DNA from: Acidobacteriota bacterium
GTDB taxonomy: Bacteria; Acidobacteriota; Terriglobia; Terriglobales; Acidobacteriaceae
Length of the DNA stretch: 64,000 bases
NCBI GenBank assembly: GCA_021792795.1
Contig: JAJYUB010000001.1
Location: forward strand, 124,001 to 188,000
Direction of reading: 5' to 3'
Notes under the pieces: generated by a model
What the model saw: the letters and a program-made list of their open reading frames with translations, nothing else
Databases searched by the model: none
What the model was told of the DNA's origin: nothing
Made by a program: the position numbers and the translations under genes
Shown here: one piece after another, positions 6,822-41,510 of the stretch
How the letters are laid out: every line of letters starts with the position of its first letter
Numbering within the stretch: the first letter of the stretch is position 1

Positions 6822-8222
6822 CTACAGTTTCAGGCGGGCCAGGCTGGGGATCTTCGACAGATCGTTGAACAGCACGAAGACCATCAGCAGGACGAAAAAT
6901 ACGAAGGCGGTTTGATAGACCCGCTCTTTCAGGGTCTCGCTCAAATCGCGCCGCATCACGGATTCAATCAGCAGAAAGAAAATCATCCCGCCGTCAAGGA
7001 TGGGGATGGGCAGCAGGTTCAACACGCCGAGCTGCACGCTGATGAACGCCGTCCAGGCCATCATGGGCGACCATCCCGGCAGGGACACAACGTAGCCGGT
7101 TTGCCGCGCAATGCCGACGGGGCCGCTGAGCGTGCGGGCCGACATCCGGTGGGTGACGACGCGGCGCAGGATGTCCAGCAATAAGGTCGATTCCTTGATG
7201 CACTCGCCGGCGGCCTTGGAAAAAGCTTGGGGGAAAGAAAGCCGCTCAATGTGCGAGGGCGGCGGATCGGTGTTGAAGCCTATCTCGTACCTGGGCTGGC
7301 CATCGGGCCCGGTTGTTTTTTCCGGCGCCACTGTCAATGTAGTTGGAGTTCCATTGCGCAGAATGGAAAGAGTCACAGGTCGGCTGCCGTTCTGTTGCAG
7401 ATACAAAATCATCGACGGCAGGGAATGCAACTGCGTGCCGTCCACGGATACGATCCGGTCGCCGGATTGGAGGCCGGCTTTTGCGCCCGGCATGTCCGCT
7501 TCGACCAGAGCGACTTTCAGCGGTTTTTGCTGGATTTCCGGCGTCAGCCCCACGTCGCCCAACCCGAAGTCGTCCGGGTTGACGGGAGACTTCAGAAACA
7601 GCGAGGTTTCCTTCTGGGCGCCATTCTGGCGTTGCACCATCATCGACACGGAATGGTTCAGGTTCAGAGCCGATCGCTCAAGGACCTGGTCCCAATTCGG
7701 GTCCTCGACGCCGTCGTAACGGACAATGCGGTCGCCATGCTGCAAGCCGGCCTTTGCCGCAGCGGAATTCGGCACAACGTAGTCCACGATTGCGGGCTGG
7801 CTGAGGTAGTTTTCAACCTCGTTATGGCCGATATAGACCGCGGTCATCAAAAAGATTGCCAGCAGGAAGTTGGATGCCGGACCGGCGCAGGCAATCAGGA
7901 TGCGCTGCCAGCGGGGCTTTGAATTCAGGTCGCCGGAGTCGCGCGGCGCAGTGCCCAATGCGCCCGCGCCGCTCATGGGTATTGTGCCATCGCCGCCCAG
8001 TTCGCCCGCCATTTTGACGTAGCCGCCCAGAGGAAGCAGGCTGATGCGATAGTCGGTGTCGCCGCGGCGGAAGCCGAACAGGCGCTTGCCAAAACCGATG
8101 GAAAAGGTCTCGATGCGCACGCCGCAAAGCTTGGCGACGGCGAAGTGGCCGAACTCATGCACCAGCACCAACACGCCGAGGACAACGAGCATGGAAACGA
8201 GGCTTACAAGGACAAATGACAT
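6822..8222 (-). CDS. rseP: Site-2 zinc metalloprotease RseP
   Basis: Inner-membrane intramembrane protease (S2P family) that cuts anti-sigma factors and remnant signal peptides. The N-terminal helix carries the catalytic HEFGH (H22, E23, H26), followed by GFGKRLFGF and the conserved LLPLGGYVKMAGE. Two PDZ-like regions are visible in the middle (NSAAAKAGLQHGDRIV and MPGAKAGLQSGDRIV). The C-terminal membrane part has the metal-ligand motif LNLLPIPILDGG. The length of 466 fits the two-PDZ RseP form. It is the last gene of the cdsA-dxr-rseP row, 29 nt after dxr. Confidence 0.95.
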   Translation of the reverse strand: MSFVLVSLVSMLVVLGVLVLVHEFGHFAVAKLCGVRIETFSIGFGKRLFGFRRGDTDYRISLLPLGGYVKMAGELGGDGTIPMSGAGALGTAPRDSGDLNSKPRWQRILIACAGPASNFLLAIFLMTAVYIGHNEVENYLSQPAIVDYVVPNSAAAKAGLQHGDRIVRYDGVEDPNWDQVLERSALNLNHSVSMMVQRQNGAQKETSLFLKSPVNPDDFGLGDVGLTPEIQQKPLKVALVEADMPGAKAGLQSGDRIVSVDGTQLHSLPSMILYLQQNGSRPVTLSILRNGTPTTLTVAPEKTTGPDGQPRYEIGFNTDPPPSHIERLSFPQAFSKAAGECIKESTLLLDILRRVVTHRMSARTLSGPVGIARQTGYVVSLPGWSPMMAWTAFISVQLGVLNLLPIPILDGGMIFFLLIESVMRRDLSETLKERVYQTAFVFFVLLMVFVLFNDLSKIPSLARLKL

Positions 8223-8251: not shown

Positions 8252-9421
8252 TTACGCTCTCCGGCCGTTCGCGAGCAACTCGCGGGCTGTGACCCGTGCC
8301 CGCGCATCTGCGTCCAGCACCTCGGCAACGGTTGCGGGATGCCGACGCGGGGTCTGCTGCAGCACCTGTTCAATTGTACGCGGTATGGCGAGAAAAGGTA
8401 TGCGTTTCGCCAGGAATGCCTCGACTGCGATTTCATCGGAAGCATTCAGGGCGATGCAATGCTCGCCGCCCAGTTCCGCCGCCTCGTAGGCAAGGCGCAG
8501 GCAAGGGAAGCGGTCGAAGTCGGGAGGAGAAAAATCCAGCTCCGCCAGGCTGCGCATGTTGAAGGTCAGGTCGGACGGGACACGCTCCGGATAGGTCAAC
8601 GCATAGAGGATCGGCAGACGCATGTCCGTGACGGAAAGCTGCGCCAGAATGCTGCCGTCGACAAACTCCACCAAGGAATGGATCGTCGATTGAGGATGGA
8701 CCGTCACACGCACGGCGCTGGGCGGCAGGTCGAACAATCGGCAGGCTTCGATGATCTCCAGGCCCTTGTTCAGCATGGTGGCGGAATCGATGGTGATGCG
8801 CTGGCCCATGACCCAGGTGGGATGGCGCAAGGCCTGCTCCACGGTGATGCCGGCGAATTGCTGCAGCGGCATGTCGCGAAACGGGCCGCCCGAGGCGGTC
8901 AGCCAGATGGAGCGCACTTCCTGCGGCAGGCCGCCGCGCATGCATTGATGGATGGCGTTGTGTTCGCTGTCGATGGGCAGCAGCATCACCTTTTTGCGCC
9001 GCGCCTCTTCGATCAGGATTTCGCCCGCCGCCACCAGGCATTCCTTGTTCGCGATTCCGATGGTTTTGCCGGCTTGAATGGCGGCGTAGGTGGCTTCCAG
9101 ACCGGCGACACCGACGATGGCGCTGACGACAAAGTCGACCTCCGGCAAGGTGGCGGCATGGACCGTGCCGGCCGGTCCGTAGACAACTTCCATGCCGGAA
9201 ATGCCTGCGGTTCGCAGTCGCTGACGCAATGTTTCCGCCAGCGATTCGTCGGCGAGCGAGACCACCCTGGGTCGCCAGCGCCGGCACTGCTCAAAAACGG
9301 TGTCGAGATTGCGGCCCGCGGCCAGGCTGGCCACGGCGAACCGCTCCGGATAGCTTTCGACGATGCGCAGCGTGCTCTGGCCAATGGAGCCGGTGGAACC
9401 GAGAATTGCAAGATGTCTCAA
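8252..9421 (-). CDS. dxr: 1-deoxy-D-xylulose 5-phosphate reductoisomerase
   Basis: Second enzyme of the MEP isoprenoid pathway: NADPH-dependent rearrangement and reduction of DXP to 2-C-methyl-D-erythritol 4-phosphate. The N-terminus has the nucleotide-binding motif GSTGSIG (8-14). The substrate and metal-binding part includes NKECLVAAGE, LPIDSEHNAI and SGGPFRD, followed by NPTW-equivalent HPTWVMGQRITIDSATMLNKGLE. Full length (389). The start codon is TTG, preceded by AGGA. In this cluster it supplies precursors for the UppS product, the lipid carrier of cell-wall synthesis. A repeat element separates it from cdsA upstream. Confidence 0.96.
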   Translation of the reverse strand: MRHLAILGSTGSIGQSTLRIVESYPERFAVASLAAGRNLDTVFEQCRRWRPRVVSLADESLAETLRQRLRTAGISGMEVVYGPAGTVHAATLPEVDFVVSAIVGVAGLEATYAAIQAGKTIGIANKECLVAAGEILIEEARRKKVMLLPIDSEHNAIHQCMRGGLPQEVRSIWLTASGGPFRDMPLQQFAGITVEQALRHPTWVMGQRITIDSATMLNKGLEIIEACRLFDLPPSAVRVTVHPQSTIHSLVEFVDGSILAQLSVTDMRLPILYALTYPERVPSDLTFNMRSLAELDFSPPDFDRFPCLRLAYEAAELGGEHCIALNASDEIAVEAFLAKRIPFLAIPRTIEQVLQQTPRRHPATVAEVLDADARARVTARELLANGRRA

Positions 9422-9583: not shown

Positions 9584-10408
9584 TCAATAGGCCTGCCGCA
9601 ACAGCAGCGCATACCACAAGACTGGCAGGGCCAGCAGCAGGGCGTCAATGCGATCGAGCACGCCGCCATGCCCCGGCAGCAAAGTGCCGGAATCCTTCAC
9701 GCCCGCGCCACGTTTCAGGGCCGACTCCAGCAGGTCGCCGATCTGCGCCGCCACATTCAACAAGACTGCCATCCCGATCCAATACCACCATGGTTGAGCA
9801 TAGAACAATAGGTCGATGCCGTGGCGATAGAGACGGGTCCCGGCCAGGACAATTCCCAGACCGGCCGCGACGCTGCCGACCACCGACCCGGCCGCGCCCT
9901 CCCAGGTTTTTTTCGGGCTGAGTTGCGGCGCCATCGGATGACGACCCATCGATCGCCCGACATAGAGAGCGACAATGTCGCCGGCCCACACCACCACCAG
10001 CAGGAACAACAACAGGGAGGCGCCATTTTCCTGCACCGTCAACATGGGAGCCAACACCAATGGGAACGCAACATAGATCAGGCCAAAGAAGCCGGCAGCC
10101 GCATCGGGCAATATCCGTTCCACCGGCGAGCGGAGGGAGCAAACTCCTAACAGCGCCAGCGCAGAGGTTCCCATGGCCGCGAGCAGAAGCGCGGGCTGCC
10201 AATAGGCCACGGCAAACAACAGGGCGCAGCAGACCAGCGCCAGCCAGCGTGGGACCCGCGCGCCGGAGGCGTCCGCCAATACCAGATACTCGTGCAGCGC
10301 CAGCTCCGCAATGATCCATGCTGCCAGCATCTGCAGCCACAACGGACCCCACAGAATCAACGCCAATACCAGCGGAATTAAAATGACCGCCGTCAGAATA
10401 CGTTTCAT
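9584..10408 (-). CDS. cdsA: Phosphatidate cytidylyltransferase
   Basis: Integral membrane enzyme that makes CDP-diacylglycerol from phosphatidic acid and CTP, the branch point of phospholipid synthesis. About eight hydrophobic helices are seen. The C-terminal half contains the family landmarks: GRSMGRHPMAPQLSPKKTWEG and the signature GHGGVLDRIDALLLALPVL close to the end. Length of 274 is normal. It normally sits directly after uppS; here an extra 396-aa gene lies between the two. Confidence 0.93.
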   Translation of the reverse strand: MKRILTAVILIPLVLALILWGPLWLQMLAAWIIAELALHEYLVLADASGARVPRWLALVCCALLFAVAYWQPALLLAAMGTSALALLGVCSLRSPVERILPDAAAGFFGLIYVAFPLVLAPMLTVQENGASLLLFLLVVVWAGDIVALYVGRSMGRHPMAPQLSPKKTWEGAAGSVVGSVAAGLGIVLAGTRLYRHGIDLLFYAQPWWYWIGMAVLLNVAAQIGDLLESALKRGAGVKDSGTLLPGHGGVLDRIDALLLALPVLWYALLLRQAY

Positions 10409-10609
10409 TCGATAGCACTTCTCCTATTGGCGCTGGTTCGCGCATACCGGCACATTTACCGTTAGGCCGCCACGGCGACCTGGGAATGAACTTTTACTCT
10501 ATAGCATCTGAAGAAGTGTCTAACGTCTTTTCGTTCGAATTTGGTCTGTAGCCGCTCGCGGGAGGGCTGTGCTCCAGGATTGGCCTGTTCATCATTATCC
10601 AATCTGGCC

Positions 10610-11906
10610 TGGGTATTTACTTGATGCAGCCGGACACAACTAGTTGCAACGGTCACCTAACAAGATAGGGCTTGTTGATAACATCAGCCATCTCCGGGCC
10701 TTTGTTGTATGGCTTGATAAACCGCAGCACGTGGTCTTTCATGCCGACCCCGCAAGCTTGGTTCTTCCAGTGGCCGCGAACTGTGAATCGAAATGAGAGC
10801 TTTCGCTTCTCTCCAAGAAGCGGTGAGAGCATTTCTCCCTTATCCGGGCCTGAGATGCTCTTGCCTACAACAATGTAGGGCAGCCTGGATGCGTGGCGTG
10901 CCGCTTGTTTCATCTCGCGTCTCTTTACCGATGAGCTAATCGCAGCGAGACGCTCCTGCAATCCTTCCAGTTCTGATGGTCTTTGCTCCACGTCCGCGTC
11001 TGCCGACGAAAGATAAAGAACGGCATTGAGGACGATCCGGAAGAAAAGTAGACCATCGCCGTAAAATATGTCATCGCTGACGGAATTCCATCCGTTCTCG
11101 TAATCCCAGCGGGTTCTCTGTTTATAGAGATTCTTGTCCACGTTTACCCAATCAGTTGTAAGCGCTTCGTTTAGGGTCAAATTGTCTGCAAGGCAGAGCG
11201 ACCTCTTGACAGTCATGTGAACTTCCTCCTGATTAGCGTGGAAGGCGACGATTTCAAGGTGTCGAAACGGCTGTTCCGCATTTGGTTCACACAAAATGAG
11301 AAAGACCGAGACCGGAGATTTGTAGTCAACGAACGCCCGCTGTTTCACGGCGGGGATAGTGGCAAAGTGGATATGGTAGAGGGCGTCGATCGCGTCGCGA
11401 CTTGTCAAGACGAACATGCACGCAGGAAAGGGAAGCTGAAGCAGGGGAGCTACGACATTCATCTCGGTACATGCCAATTGTTGCACTAGATCGTCCTGCA
11501 AGTAGAACGTCTTCGCCCCAAACAATTCAAAGTTGAGCACTGGATAGTATTCGCACGCCATTGCGCGCTCCTGCCATTCCAAGACATTTCGCGTCTCTGA
11601 ATCCTGTTCTGCTGACCTAAGTACCTGGGCAATGCTGACGTGTTGTTCTCTAGCTACGAACTCGATCAAACGCCGGCATTCGGCGTCCCAAATTTGACTA
11701 AAACGCGAGGGGTATGAGTCCAGGTCAGGCACGGGACTGGAACACCCTCCTTGGCGAAGAGAATCGACATCCTGAGCAATGGCCTCGTACATCGAAGAGA
11801 CTTGTTTTTTGCGAATATCGTAGAAGGTGGAGGGTAGCAACATTTCCGGCTCCGTAAATGGCGGTTGACGAGCGTTGTGTGCCCGGTCTCGTGAAATAAA
11901 TACCCA
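10610..11906. mobile_element. Possible 1.3-kb insertion bounded by 15-bp inverted repeats
   Basis: TGGGTATTTACTTGA at 10610-10624 and the inverted TGAAATAAATACCCA at 11892-11906 match at 13 of 15 positions and bracket the orphan gene at 10653-11843. The bracketed segment is visibly less GC-rich than its neighbours and separates uppS from cdsA, genes that are usually adjacent. No transposase, integrase or clear target-site duplication was seen, so this may be a decayed or nonautonomous element, or the repeats may be coincidental. Confidence 0.35.
10653..11843 (-). CDS. Orphan 396-aa protein, unknown, inserted between uppS and cdsA
   Basis: I do not recognise this protein with confidence. It is soluble, with no signal peptide or membrane helix, and has an unusual amino-acid makeup for the region (many Tyr, Phe, Asn, Lys). 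The C-terminus has a compact motif block, RFTVRGHWKNQACGVGM, followed by an aromatic/basic stretch ending near FIKPYNKGPEM. A GHW...G...I.P...G arrangement is reminiscent of the C-termini of AcrVA2-like and related mobile-element proteins, but this is from memory and weak. The codon and base use differ from uppS and cdsA. It reads in the same direction as the surrounding operon. Role unknown; an acquired accessory or defence/anti-defence gene is one possibility. Confidence 0.6.
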   Translation of the reverse strand: MLLPSTFYDIRKKQVSSMYEAIAQDVDSLRQGGCSSPVPDLDSYPSRFSQIWDAECRRLIEFVAREQHVSIAQVLRSAEQDSETRNVLEWQERAMACEYYPVLNFELFGAKTFYLQDDLVQQLACTEMNVVAPLLQLPFPACMFVLTSRDAIDALYHIHFATIPAVKQRAFVDYKSPVSVFLILCEPNAEQPFRHLEIVAFHANQEEVHMTVKRSLCLADNLTLNEALTTDWVNVDKNLYKQRTRWDYENGWNSVSDDIFYGDGLLFFRIVLNAVLYLSSADADVEQRPSELEGLQERLAAISSSVKRREMKQAARHASRLPYIVVGKSISGPDKGEMLSPLLGEKRKLSFRFTVRGHWKNQACGVGMKDHVLRFIKPYNKGPEMADVINKPYLVR

Positions 11907-11959
11907 ATTTATCTAATGGTATCGAATGAATGCGAAAACGCCGCGGAAACGAACTGGAA

Positions 11960-12050: not shown

Positions 12051-12851
<801 letters not shown>

Positions 12852-12980
12852 CTCGTCGGCGGACAATTCATGGAGACGGCTGGGTGGGGTCACGGTGGAC
12901 AAGGGAAAATACCTCAACTTGCTTCGACCGTAGCATAGTGCCAAGAGGGGTCGCAAATAGGATGCCGGCAAGCCTGCTGG

Positions 12981-39776: not shown

Positions 39777-41510
39777 TTATTGAGCCTGCGGGCTCACCCG
39801 ATAGACTGTCAGGTCCTGCGGGCGATAGAAAAAGAGCGGCTCATATTGTCGCCCCGCCAACAACTTCTTCAGTTGGTCACGGGAGAGCTGCTCTTCCTCC
39901 TCGTTGGAAAAATCCTGCACCACCAGCAGATGTTCTTCCGGTGGAACTCCGGACCGCTGATAGTTGGAAACGCGCTCGTTCAAGTAAAAGCCCAGGCCAT
40001 ACTGGACGTCGCGGCGGGCCTGGTACACGGCAACGATACGGGGAGCATCCGGGAGGGCAGCGACTTCATGGGCCAGGGTGCGCGCTGAATATTTTTGATC
40101 GAGCAGGATGCCATTGCGCGTTCCCAGAAGGAACACGAGAATCAGCGCCACTGGCACCAGCGTTGCCACGCGGAGCCGGTTCATCCCAAAGCGCGCCACC
40201 ACCACCACCACCCCGATGCCGACGGCCGTGCCGTCCATCAGGGCGGCGGCGATCACGCGCGGAGGCGGCCATTGGCGCGGATGGACCAGAATCATTGGCA
40301 ACATCAGCGTCGCCGCCACCAGCGCACCCACCACGATGGCATGGATCGTCAGCAGAGGCATCTTCAGCCCGCGCTTGCGGATGCGATTCAGATAGTCGCC
40401 GCAAAGAATGGTGATCGGCGGCAACGCGGGCAGTATGTATCCGGGCAGTTTCGACTGGGAGAAACTGAAAAAGACGATGGGAAACGCGGCCCACAACACA
40501 AGAAATTCAGGGAACGCATCCCCCGCCCTGGGATTTCCAATGTATCGGTCGGGATTGCGACGGACCTTCCATTCATCGATGGAATCGCGCACCGCGTCCC
40601 AGCAGGCGGTCCATGCCAGGGCAAGCCATGGCAGCAGCGCCAGCGCCGTGATCGGAATATAGAACCAGATGGCTTGAGAATGCCGGAAGCGGTCGGTGGC
40701 AAAACGTTCCAGATTGTGTTCCCAGAAAAACACCCGTAAGAACTGCGGGTTTCGATGCTGGACGGCAATAAACCAGGGCAACACCATGGCCAGATACAAC
40801 ACAATCCCCGGCATCCAGATGGTGCGGCGCAGTAGCGACCACTCCTTGCGCAGCGCCGCAAACAGAAAAATAATGGCGAACGCCATCATGGGCGCTACAG
40901 GGCCTTTGGCGAGCGTGGCGGCGCCTCCAAAAAAATAGAGGTCGAACAGCCAGAATTTTTTGTCGGTTTCATACCAGGCATACCAGCCCAGCATTCCAAT
41001 GCAGAAAGGCGCTGCCAGTTGCATGTCCGTGGAGGCTCCGCGGGCGAATCCAATGATTCCGGCGCAGGAGACGGTGATCAGCGCGGCATCCAGTTGCCCA
41101 CCCGGACGAAACCGGCGCATGTGCAGGTAAATCAGGACGATCAAAATAAATGCGAATTCAGCCGAAGGCAGGCGCGCCGACCAGTCATGCACGCCAAAGT
41201 CTTTAAAGGAGAACATGGCCCGCCAGTAGTACAGCGCGGGCTTTTCCAGCCACGGCTTGCCATATAAAACGGGAGTGATAAAGTCATGCCGGGCCAGCAT
41301 TTCCCGCGCGATTTGCGCGTAGCGTGGCTCGTCGGCGCCCACCAGGCCAATCACCGACCCTCCCAGGTAGGGAACCAGCCCATACCCAAGAAAAAACGTC
41401 GTGAAGCCCAGTAGCGTGGCAAACTCAGCCACCGTCGCTGCGGTGAGATTCTGCCAGAAGCTTCCTCCTGGCAGGTATTGCCTCCAATTGTCGCTTCGGT
41501 TTGCGGTCAC
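39777..41510 (-). CDS. GT39/ArnT-type membrane glycosyltransferase
   Basis: Integral membrane glycosyltransferase of the PMT/ArnT group that uses a polyprenyl-phosphate sugar donor. The first extracytoplasmic loop has VGADEPRYAQIAREMLARHD and PWLEKPALYYW, the conserved catalytic DE plus KPP/KPA motif. Around a dozen hydrophobic helices follow, then a C-terminal soluble domain (last ~100 residues). 577 residues is typical. It is read convergently with the next gene upstream. Likely target is a surface lipid or glycan; not determinable from the sequence. Confidence 0.85.
   Translation of the reverse strand: MTANRSDNWRQYLPGGSFWQNLTAATVAEFATLLGFTTFFLGYGLVPYLGGSVIGLVGADEPRYAQIAREMLARHDFITPVLYGKPWLEKPALYYWRAMFSFKDFGVHDWSARLPSAEFAFILIVLIYLHMRRFRPGGQLDAALITVSCAGIIGFARGASTDMQLAAPFCIGMLGWYAWYETDKKFWLFDLYFFGGAATLAKGPVAPMMAFAIIFLFAALRKEWSLLRRTIWMPGIVLYLAMVLPWFIAVQHRNPQFLRVFFWEHNLERFATDRFRHSQAIWFYIPITALALLPWLALAWTACWDAVRDSIDEWKVRRNPDRYIGNPRAGDAFPEFLVLWAAFPIVFFSFSQSKLPGYILPALPPITILCGDYLNRIRKRGLKMPLLTIHAIVVGALVAATLMLPMILVHPRQWPPPRVIAAALMDGTAVGIGVVVVVARFGMNRLRVATLVPVALILVFLLGTRNGILLDQKYSARTLAHEVAALPDAPRIVAVYQARRDVQYGLGFYLNERVSNYQRSGVPPEEHLLVVQDFSNEEEEQLSRDQLKKLLAGRQYEPLFFYRPQDLTVYRVSPQAQ

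Follow-up and report, generated by a model that had tools for sequence, protein, structure and literature searches.

A probable IS1595-type cassette with a distant AcrVA2/FinQ relative as its cargo in a uppS-cdsA operon

A foreign stretch of about 1.3 kb separates uppS from cdsA in the window (the whole 64,000-nucleotide stretch of DNA that was analyzed). It is best read as a transposase-less, non-autonomous cassette of the IS1595 type, MIC-like in its organization, and the protein it encodes, P0001, appears to be a remote relative of AcrVA2 and FinQ. We give a probability of roughly 0.6 to the explanation as a whole, in which an IS1595-type cassette carries AcrVA2/FinQ-related cargo that acts as an mRNA silencer. 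The gene and its neighbors are arranged as listed here, and uppS, cdsA, dxr, and rseP are what we take the neighboring ORFs to be.

6822-8222, minus strand: rseP ORF
8252-9421, minus strand: dxr ORF
9584-10408, minus strand: cdsA-like gene, the downstream neighbor (ORF)
10653-11843, minus strand: cargo gene P0001, 396 aa (ORF), probable distant AcrVA2/FinQ relative
12051-12971, minus strand: uppS-like gene, the upstream neighbor (ORF), start codon uncertain

The preliminary description of this DNA had noted that a 396-aa gene of lower GC content parts uppS from cdsA, and both the position of the ORF and its composition bear this out. The GC content of the gene is 0.512, compared with 0.609 for uppS and 0.622 for cdsA, and its GC3 is 0.587 against 0.75-0.77 across the four operon neighbors. 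P0001 is read from the same strand as the uppS/cdsA operon genes and is the sole long ORF between the repeat ends described below; transposase is absent from the insert (no Pfam or NCBIfam match at E 1). Likewise, no toxin-antitoxin gene was recognized when the ORFs of the insert were read by eye, and a scan of the insert for promoters and terminators gave nothing that beat shuffles.

The same description had considered the gene to be an orphan of unrecognized family and had proposed a profile search of its protein. Pfam, NCBIfam, and PADLOC were indeed silent for P0001, but phrog_15934 (function unknown) matches its C-terminus with E 1.5e-11, and the orphan label was overturned by a comparison of family profiles. 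The alignment of the P0001 family (A3) has eight rows, among them plasmid rows from Citrobacter, Leptospira, Burkholderia, and Shinella. It omits the Shewanella relative L034 (protein accession same as that of L033), L107 (match same as that of L106), the partial plasmid matches (two Ruegeria, four Mycolicibacterium, three Mycobacterium, and one Rothia), and the matches in genomes G091 and G297. The AcrVA2/FinQ alignment (A4) has nine rows, chosen among the 20 phage and 30 plasmid matches listed out of 49 and 607 matching records, respectively. When A3 was aligned with A4 by hhalign, the two families matched over 239 columns with Prob 96.4, a score of 76.6, and E 1.2e-9.

Membership of A4 follows from the AcrVA2-like gene of Shewanella phage Y11 (OQ927986), which is so named in a passage of PMC10846135 and matches PDB 7ci1 with E 1.5e-72. 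Relatives of this gene occur in the phage and plasmid records just mentioned, and 22 of 30 among the plasmid matches listed are annotated finQ. The FinQ frame itself aligns with phage Y11 AcrVA2 at 25% identity over 362 columns (E 2e-22). On the E. coli plasmid NZ_CP058882.1 (L139), the annotated finQ (477-1256) begins 312 bases inside a longer frame (165-1256), and homology to AcrVA2 already sets in at 201, ahead of the annotated start. The open-access literature that was searched contains no paper naming FinQ together with AcrVA2 or with anti-CRISPR.

Several controls bear on the match between the profiles. Scored by script, the A3-A4 comparison reached 71.5, the 30 column-shuffled controls reached at most 20.9, and a reversed profile reached 11.4; unrelated uppS and transposase profiles used as hhalign controls gave at most 17.7. 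The hhalign alignment is colinear and brings the RGHW...G segments of the two families together, with RGHWKNQACGVG at P0001 residues 356-367 aligned with RGHWHGVWRGTG. This C-terminal segment is present in four of the six A3 rows that reach it and is changed in the two Burkholderia rows.

The relationship is nevertheless a remote one. A profile for phrog_6160, the PHROG to which AcrVA2-like phage proteins belong, matches all nine A4 rows versus two of the eight A3 rows (best E 0.0013), and it does not match P0001 itself. Compared alone with AcrVA2/FinQ, P0001 gives a BLASTP E of 0.016 over 23 residues in a single comparison and single-sequence hhalign E-values of 0.05-0.19, none of them significant. 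The complete A3 matches the three closest AcrVA2 sequences with E 3.6e-4, and A3 cut to four rows without Burkholderia gives E 3.2e-6 against A4 and E 0.016 against those three sequences, where each reduced-row E-value refers to one comparison rather than to a whole database. Because P0001 alone is not significant, lacks a phrog_6160 match, and has a link that weakens as rows are removed, we regard it as a distant relative within the superfamily and not as an AcrVA2. That it is such a distant homologue of AcrVA2 and FinQ we hold to be highly likely.

Structure prediction is consistent with this assignment. Passages of PMC10846135 describe AcrVA2 as having N-terminal helices, an alpha/beta core, and a loose C-terminus. 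The model of P0001 (mean pLDDT 63.9, with residues 329-396 below 50) aligns 229 residues with AcrVA2 (Z 12.6, rmsd 5.0), and the next unrelated chain scores 3.7. A model of the alphaproteobacterial relative L104, which has a pLDDT of 51.7 and was built on the same four sequences as the P0001 model, gives Z 10.9 over 211 residues (rmsd 4.4), the next chain scoring 4.0. These comparisons were made by VIA-align and cover the best 1,000 chains from Foldseek. Foldseek itself returned no PDB match for the P0001 model under E 0.001 and, among viral models, one uncharacterized phage protein (E 2.3e-4). Searches of the PDB by sequence gave no match for profile A1 or for the Leptospira relative, and for A3 and P0001 they gave unrelated chains only, with E 0.61 or worse. 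Thus, as far as predicted models of modest confidence can indicate, the fold of the P0001 family matches that of AcrVA2.

Because matches among plasmids, contigs, and genomes of the phylum are few, the P0001 family appears to be sparse, and where its context could be read it often resides on plasmids. A tblastn search with P0001 matched 15 plasmid records, of which four are covered over at least 80% at 26.5-36.2% identity: the Citrobacter and Shewanella IncC plasmids (36.2%), a Leptospira plasmid (27.0%), and a Burkholderia plasmid (26.5%). A profile search of the genome_contigs collection recovered four loci, two of which give one identical match, and among 396 genomes of the phylum there were three matches, namely the window's own and two partial, distant ones (G091 and G297). 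No match was obtained for P0001 alone in genome_contigs, viral_contigs, or phage records, nor for profile A1 in viral_contigs.

The surroundings of these relatives are diverse. On the IncC plasmids (L033, 9454-15241, and L034), a Tn3-family transposon carries the relative, which sits directly behind an RHH/ParE-type pair and before an integrase gene. In an alphaproteobacterial assembly (L104, 4376-7203), it lies directly behind a HipA-type gene. The Shinella plasmid (L037, 4562-5651) carries the N-terminal part of a relative, the match ending after query residue 158, directly downstream from an ORF that by eye resembles the end of a HerA-type ATPase. Finally, L106 (5854-6495) and L107 carry a partial relative that corresponds to query residues 188-391; these two loci come from differently named assemblies and give an identical match, and in L106 the open frame of the relative overlaps the end of the preceding frame.

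What P0001 might do can be considered in light of its two named relatives. Passages of PMC13131331 report that AcrVA2 recognizes the nascent N-terminus of Cas12a and triggers decay of cas12a mRNA by machinery described there as unknown. According to portions of PMC8744291, FinQ is a fertility inhibitor of IncI conjugative plasmids that ends F tra transcription at several sites. Since both AcrVA2 and FinQ lower a specific transcript, the simplest function that P0001 could have inherited would be transcript-specific silencing guided by a nascent protein. By analogy with AcrVA2, its alpha/beta core would recognize a short peptide emerging from the ribosome, and its C-terminal segment with RGHW...G would be required for the mRNA under translation to be lost. 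The outcome would be that one protein of a rival element or of the host is switched off, and the silenced gene might belong to another mobile element. This mechanism of mRNA loss directed by a nascent chain, including the activity, the role of the C-terminus, and the nature of the target, is drawn from analogy, and we consider it tentative, at somewhat less than even odds.

Cas12a (TIGR04330) was found in none of 10 genomes of the genus, a result to be read alongside its equal absence from all 14 control genomes. The window's genome does have a weak Cas1-like piece near a contig end (C103, 237-557; G000, L143), which matches with E 6.6e-6 and 26.2 bits, over the Pfam cut-off.

An alternative that keeps the cassette but assigns its cargo another purpose is that the AcrVA2-like fold serves, for example, as the third component or a regulator of toxin-antitoxin modules. 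Two of the gene contexts suit this proposal, in that the Citrobacter/Shewanella relative directly follows an RHH/ParE-type pair and the alphaproteobacterial relative follows a HipA gene, and a fold in common need not mean a function in common. However, passenger modules of a transposon may adjoin without acting jointly, no annotated toxin or antitoxin occurs within the 8-kb flanks of the Leptospira and Burkholderia plasmid relatives, and the insert in the window lacks a recognized toxin-antitoxin gene. We judge such another use of the fold to be unlikely and retain the silencer as the preferred, if tentative, reading.

The case for a cassette is carried by the ends of the insert. The preliminary description had reported 15-bp inverted repeats, complementary at 13 of 15 positions, on either side of the gene. 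They are located where it had placed them, with TGGGTATTTACTTGA at 10610-10624 on the plus strand and TGGGTATTTATTTCA at 11892-11906 on the minus strand. Such a pair alone is not evidence for an element because the window contains 108 pairs of 15-nt arms that are complementary at 13 or more positions and spaced 1.0-1.6 kb apart. The longer ends are as follows.

10610-10640, plus strand: right terminal repeat, IS1595-type; 25/31 identical to the IS end of the sister species (G009)
11876-11906, minus strand: left terminal repeat, IS1595-type; 19/31 identical ungapped, better with one small gap

In gapped alignments with eight IS1595 ends of the genus, none of 5,000 random stretches scored as high as the right end, and 26 of 5,000 scored as high as the left end, whose ungapped 19/31 lies within the range of 17-20 reached by chance in unrelated stretches. 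Aligned to each other with gaps, the two longer ends are equaled by 18 of 20,000 random pairs. An earlier proposal to seek the 15-bp ends elsewhere in the genome was also productive. Allowing at most one mismatch, the end pattern occurs at four places in the 4.04-Mb genome (reversed control, zero), two of them being the ends of the insert. The other two are on contigs C86 and C58, in each case near a contig end, and the similarity there runs on to TGGGTATTTACTTKACTCAGGYGACCCCAAC. Within the window, positions 39980-39994 match the end sequence with two mismatches, and a 31-nt scan reveals no longer end there. A reading of the repeats as integron cassette (attC) sites, judged by eye, was dropped because the GTTAGGT match falls within the coding end.

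In MICs and transporter ISs, the ends of an insertion sequence surround a passenger gene. Because of the end matches, we read the insert as an IS1595-type element of this kind, in which a passenger gene replaces the transposase. That the stretch is an insertion with IS1595-type ends is very probable. The IS1595 family is reportedly the subject of Siguier et al. 2009.

Similar ends occur elsewhere in the genus. The end on C58 runs into a stretch that shares 82% identity with an IS left end from the sister species. This stretch, used as a query, matched six of 61 genomes: the window's own genome at two places (one being the query itself), G009 (11 places), three further congeners with one or two places each, and, weakly (E 0.008), G059 from another family. 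In the sister species G009, the left end of the IS occurs in 10 exact copies, and one IS1595-family IS has expanded there, with ten left ends (on contigs C32, C100, C123, C145, C161, C181, C183, C212, C217, and C219; L050, L055, and L058-L065) and seven right ends located at contig ends. Comparison of the 10 left with the 7 right flanks at 16 offset combinations yielded exactly two identical 8-mers, at one common offset. The target duplications of this IS, two of which were thus found, are 8 bp and begin 2 nt outside TGGG.

Complete elements whose ends are related to those of the insert, and not identical, encode an IS1595 transposase (NF033547, PF12762, PF12760). The genus yielded 20 loci with an IS1595 transposase, of which five have an end pair spaced 857-1,030 bp apart, five have one end, and 10 have none. 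The ten loci with ends hold when the window's own end is left out as a probe, but two of the end probes come from two of the elements counted. Read by eye, the flanks of three further complete IS1595 elements from the genus show no evident target duplication. The window's genome contains one transposase fragment below the family cut-off in addition to the broken-off IS ends.

The question of whether the site was once empty was addressed by comparison with relatives, as the preliminary description had suggested. Relatives of uppS at E 1e-40 or better were present in 37 of 41 genomes. A search for cdsA covered 11 loci and matched nine, these being eight congeners and L011 (another genus of the same family), with L012 and L013 giving none. 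In eight of nine congeners uppS adjoins cdsA, and the ninth (L012) is unreadable at a contig edge; hence all eight readable congeners have the empty site. The distance from the uppS match to cdsA is 167-309 bp in these eight versus 1,645 bp in the window, measured alike. Far from standing at the same place in all relatives, P0001 had no match at E 0.001 in any of 60 relatives, which include nine congeners and several incomplete assemblies. These empty sites, together with the IS1595-type ends, agree with the original proposal that a small cargo element landed in the operon in the direction of its genes.

Five of the eight available congeners were aligned to the joined flanks of the insert. They have in common a block, CATTCAT..GATAATG, upstream of cdsA, and the insertion cuts this conserved block in two.

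10594-10599, minus strand: GATAAT core of the conserved block upstream of cdsA; GATAATG in 4/5 aligned congeners
11920-11932, minus strand: left part of the conserved block, CATTCATTCGATA, from the congener alignment

The fifth aligned congener (L008) has GAGTATGG in place of GATAATG. The GATAAT block may be a promoter, and a consensus scan gave no site.

The same alignments locate the junctions. Homology to the congeners ends 13 nt outside the left repeat and 10 nt outside the right one. The claim that the repeats bound the insert therefore holds in that they are IS1595-like and lie no more than 13 nt from the junctions, but the junctions do not coincide with them exactly. No perfect 8-bp target duplication was found at the insert. 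A weak, imperfect candidate is as follows.

10595-10602, minus strand: right-hand copy of the candidate duplication (8 bp, imperfect), TTGGATAA, lying 7 nt beyond TGGG; weak
11909-11916, minus strand: left-hand copy of the candidate duplication (8 bp, imperfect), TTAGATAA, lying 2 nt beyond TGGG; weak

TTAGATAA and TTGGATAA are identical at 7 of 8 positions, a value reached by 208 of 5,000 flank shuffles, and the right copy lies 5 nt farther out than in the IS of the sister species. A perfect 4-bp GATA duplication also fits the empty site. We tentatively prefer the 8-bp candidate because the GATA duplication would put the junctions 10-13 nt beyond the IS1595 ends.

These imperfections could be taken to mean that the insert arrived otherwise, by plasmid or phage recombination or with a different transposon, and that its IS1595-like ends are remnants or partly due to chance. 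An end pair of the IS1595 type was found within 1.5 kb of none of nine loci with P0001 relatives, where the best single end matched 20/31, within background; because of this, the association between cassette and gene comes from the window locus alone. The displaced junctions, the missing perfect duplication, and the weakly matched left end would be explained by such a route. We consider it improbable, since the foreign stretch lies between two IS1595-type ends that face inward, no random stretch out of 5,000 equals the right one (25/31), and the three complete IS1595 elements of the genus read by eye are likewise devoid of an evident duplication.

A further proposal, that P0001 has long belonged to the operon and disappeared from the relatives, can point to the gene's location on the operon's strand and is exceedingly improbable, as it is contradicted, unless many independent clean losses took place, by the empty sites in all eight readable congeners, the lack of a match in 60 relatives, the divergent GC3, and a family found in three of 396 phylum genomes, of which one is the window's own and two are partial and distant.

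To return to the IS1595-type cassette, its insertion most likely dates after the split of the window's species from the sampled congeners. An IS1595-family transposase acting in trans is the most likely agent to have put the cassette in the uppS-cdsA gap in the orientation of the operon.

Cargo cassettes without a transposase were already known. Within the open-access literature searched, the combination of such a cassette with an AcrVA2/FinQ relative and the P0001 branch itself appear new: no paper there joins AcrVA2 with an insertion sequence, and AcrVA2 together with a transposon does occur. Part of PMC12230656 reports that many uncharacterized proteins (342 hits) share the AcrVA2 fold. If the link proposed here is true, FinQ and AcrVA2 would be relatives of a broad and mostly unnamed family, comparison of its branches could help to explain how recognition of a peptide by AcrVA2 leads to disappearance of the mRNA, and targets beyond Cas12a would become testable for such proteins. 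A bolder generalization, which we put forward as speculative and rather doubtful, is that AcrVA2, FinQ, and the P0001 family form one superfamily of mRNA silencers directed by nascent peptides, serving as single-gene weapons of mobile elements beyond CRISPR and Proteobacteria, with IS1595-type cassettes as one vehicle into chromosomes.

MICs and transporter ISs are the nearest known parallel for the insert, which similarly has IS-type ends around a passenger and no transposase of its own. Both kinds of element are described in PMC3129680. The insert differs in that its ends are of the IS1595 type, its passenger is an AcrVA2/FinQ relative, and it is present as a single copy with no perfect target duplication. 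Like the IS1595 insertion sequences of the genus (for example, the copies in G005, G002, and G009), the insert has a terminal repeat of about 31 bp and a comparable size (1,297 bp, compared with 857-1,030 bp), whereas it holds another gene in place of the transposase.

FinQ was reportedly sequenced in 1989. Its frame forms one row of the A4 profile that matches the P0001 family; however, FinQ is distant from P0001, is carried by conjugative plasmids, and has F tra transcripts as its target. Among relatives of P0001 itself, the hypothetical protein WP_089069035.1 from the Tn3-family transposon of the IncC plasmids is 36% identical over 100% of P0001 and is likewise transposon cargo, but it adjoins a Tn3-family transposase, the RHH/ParE-type pair, and an integrase. 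From AcrVA2 (PDB 7CI1/7CI2), which is an anti-CRISPR protein directed at Cas12a, P0001 is set apart by 8% identity in the structural alignment, by the lack of a phrog_6160 match, and by a distinct C-terminal tail, KGPEMADxxNKPYLV. Despite these differences, the predicted fold of P0001 has the same succession of N-terminal helices, alpha/beta core, and loose C-terminus, and the profile alignment of its family with AcrVA2 is colinear through RGHW...G.
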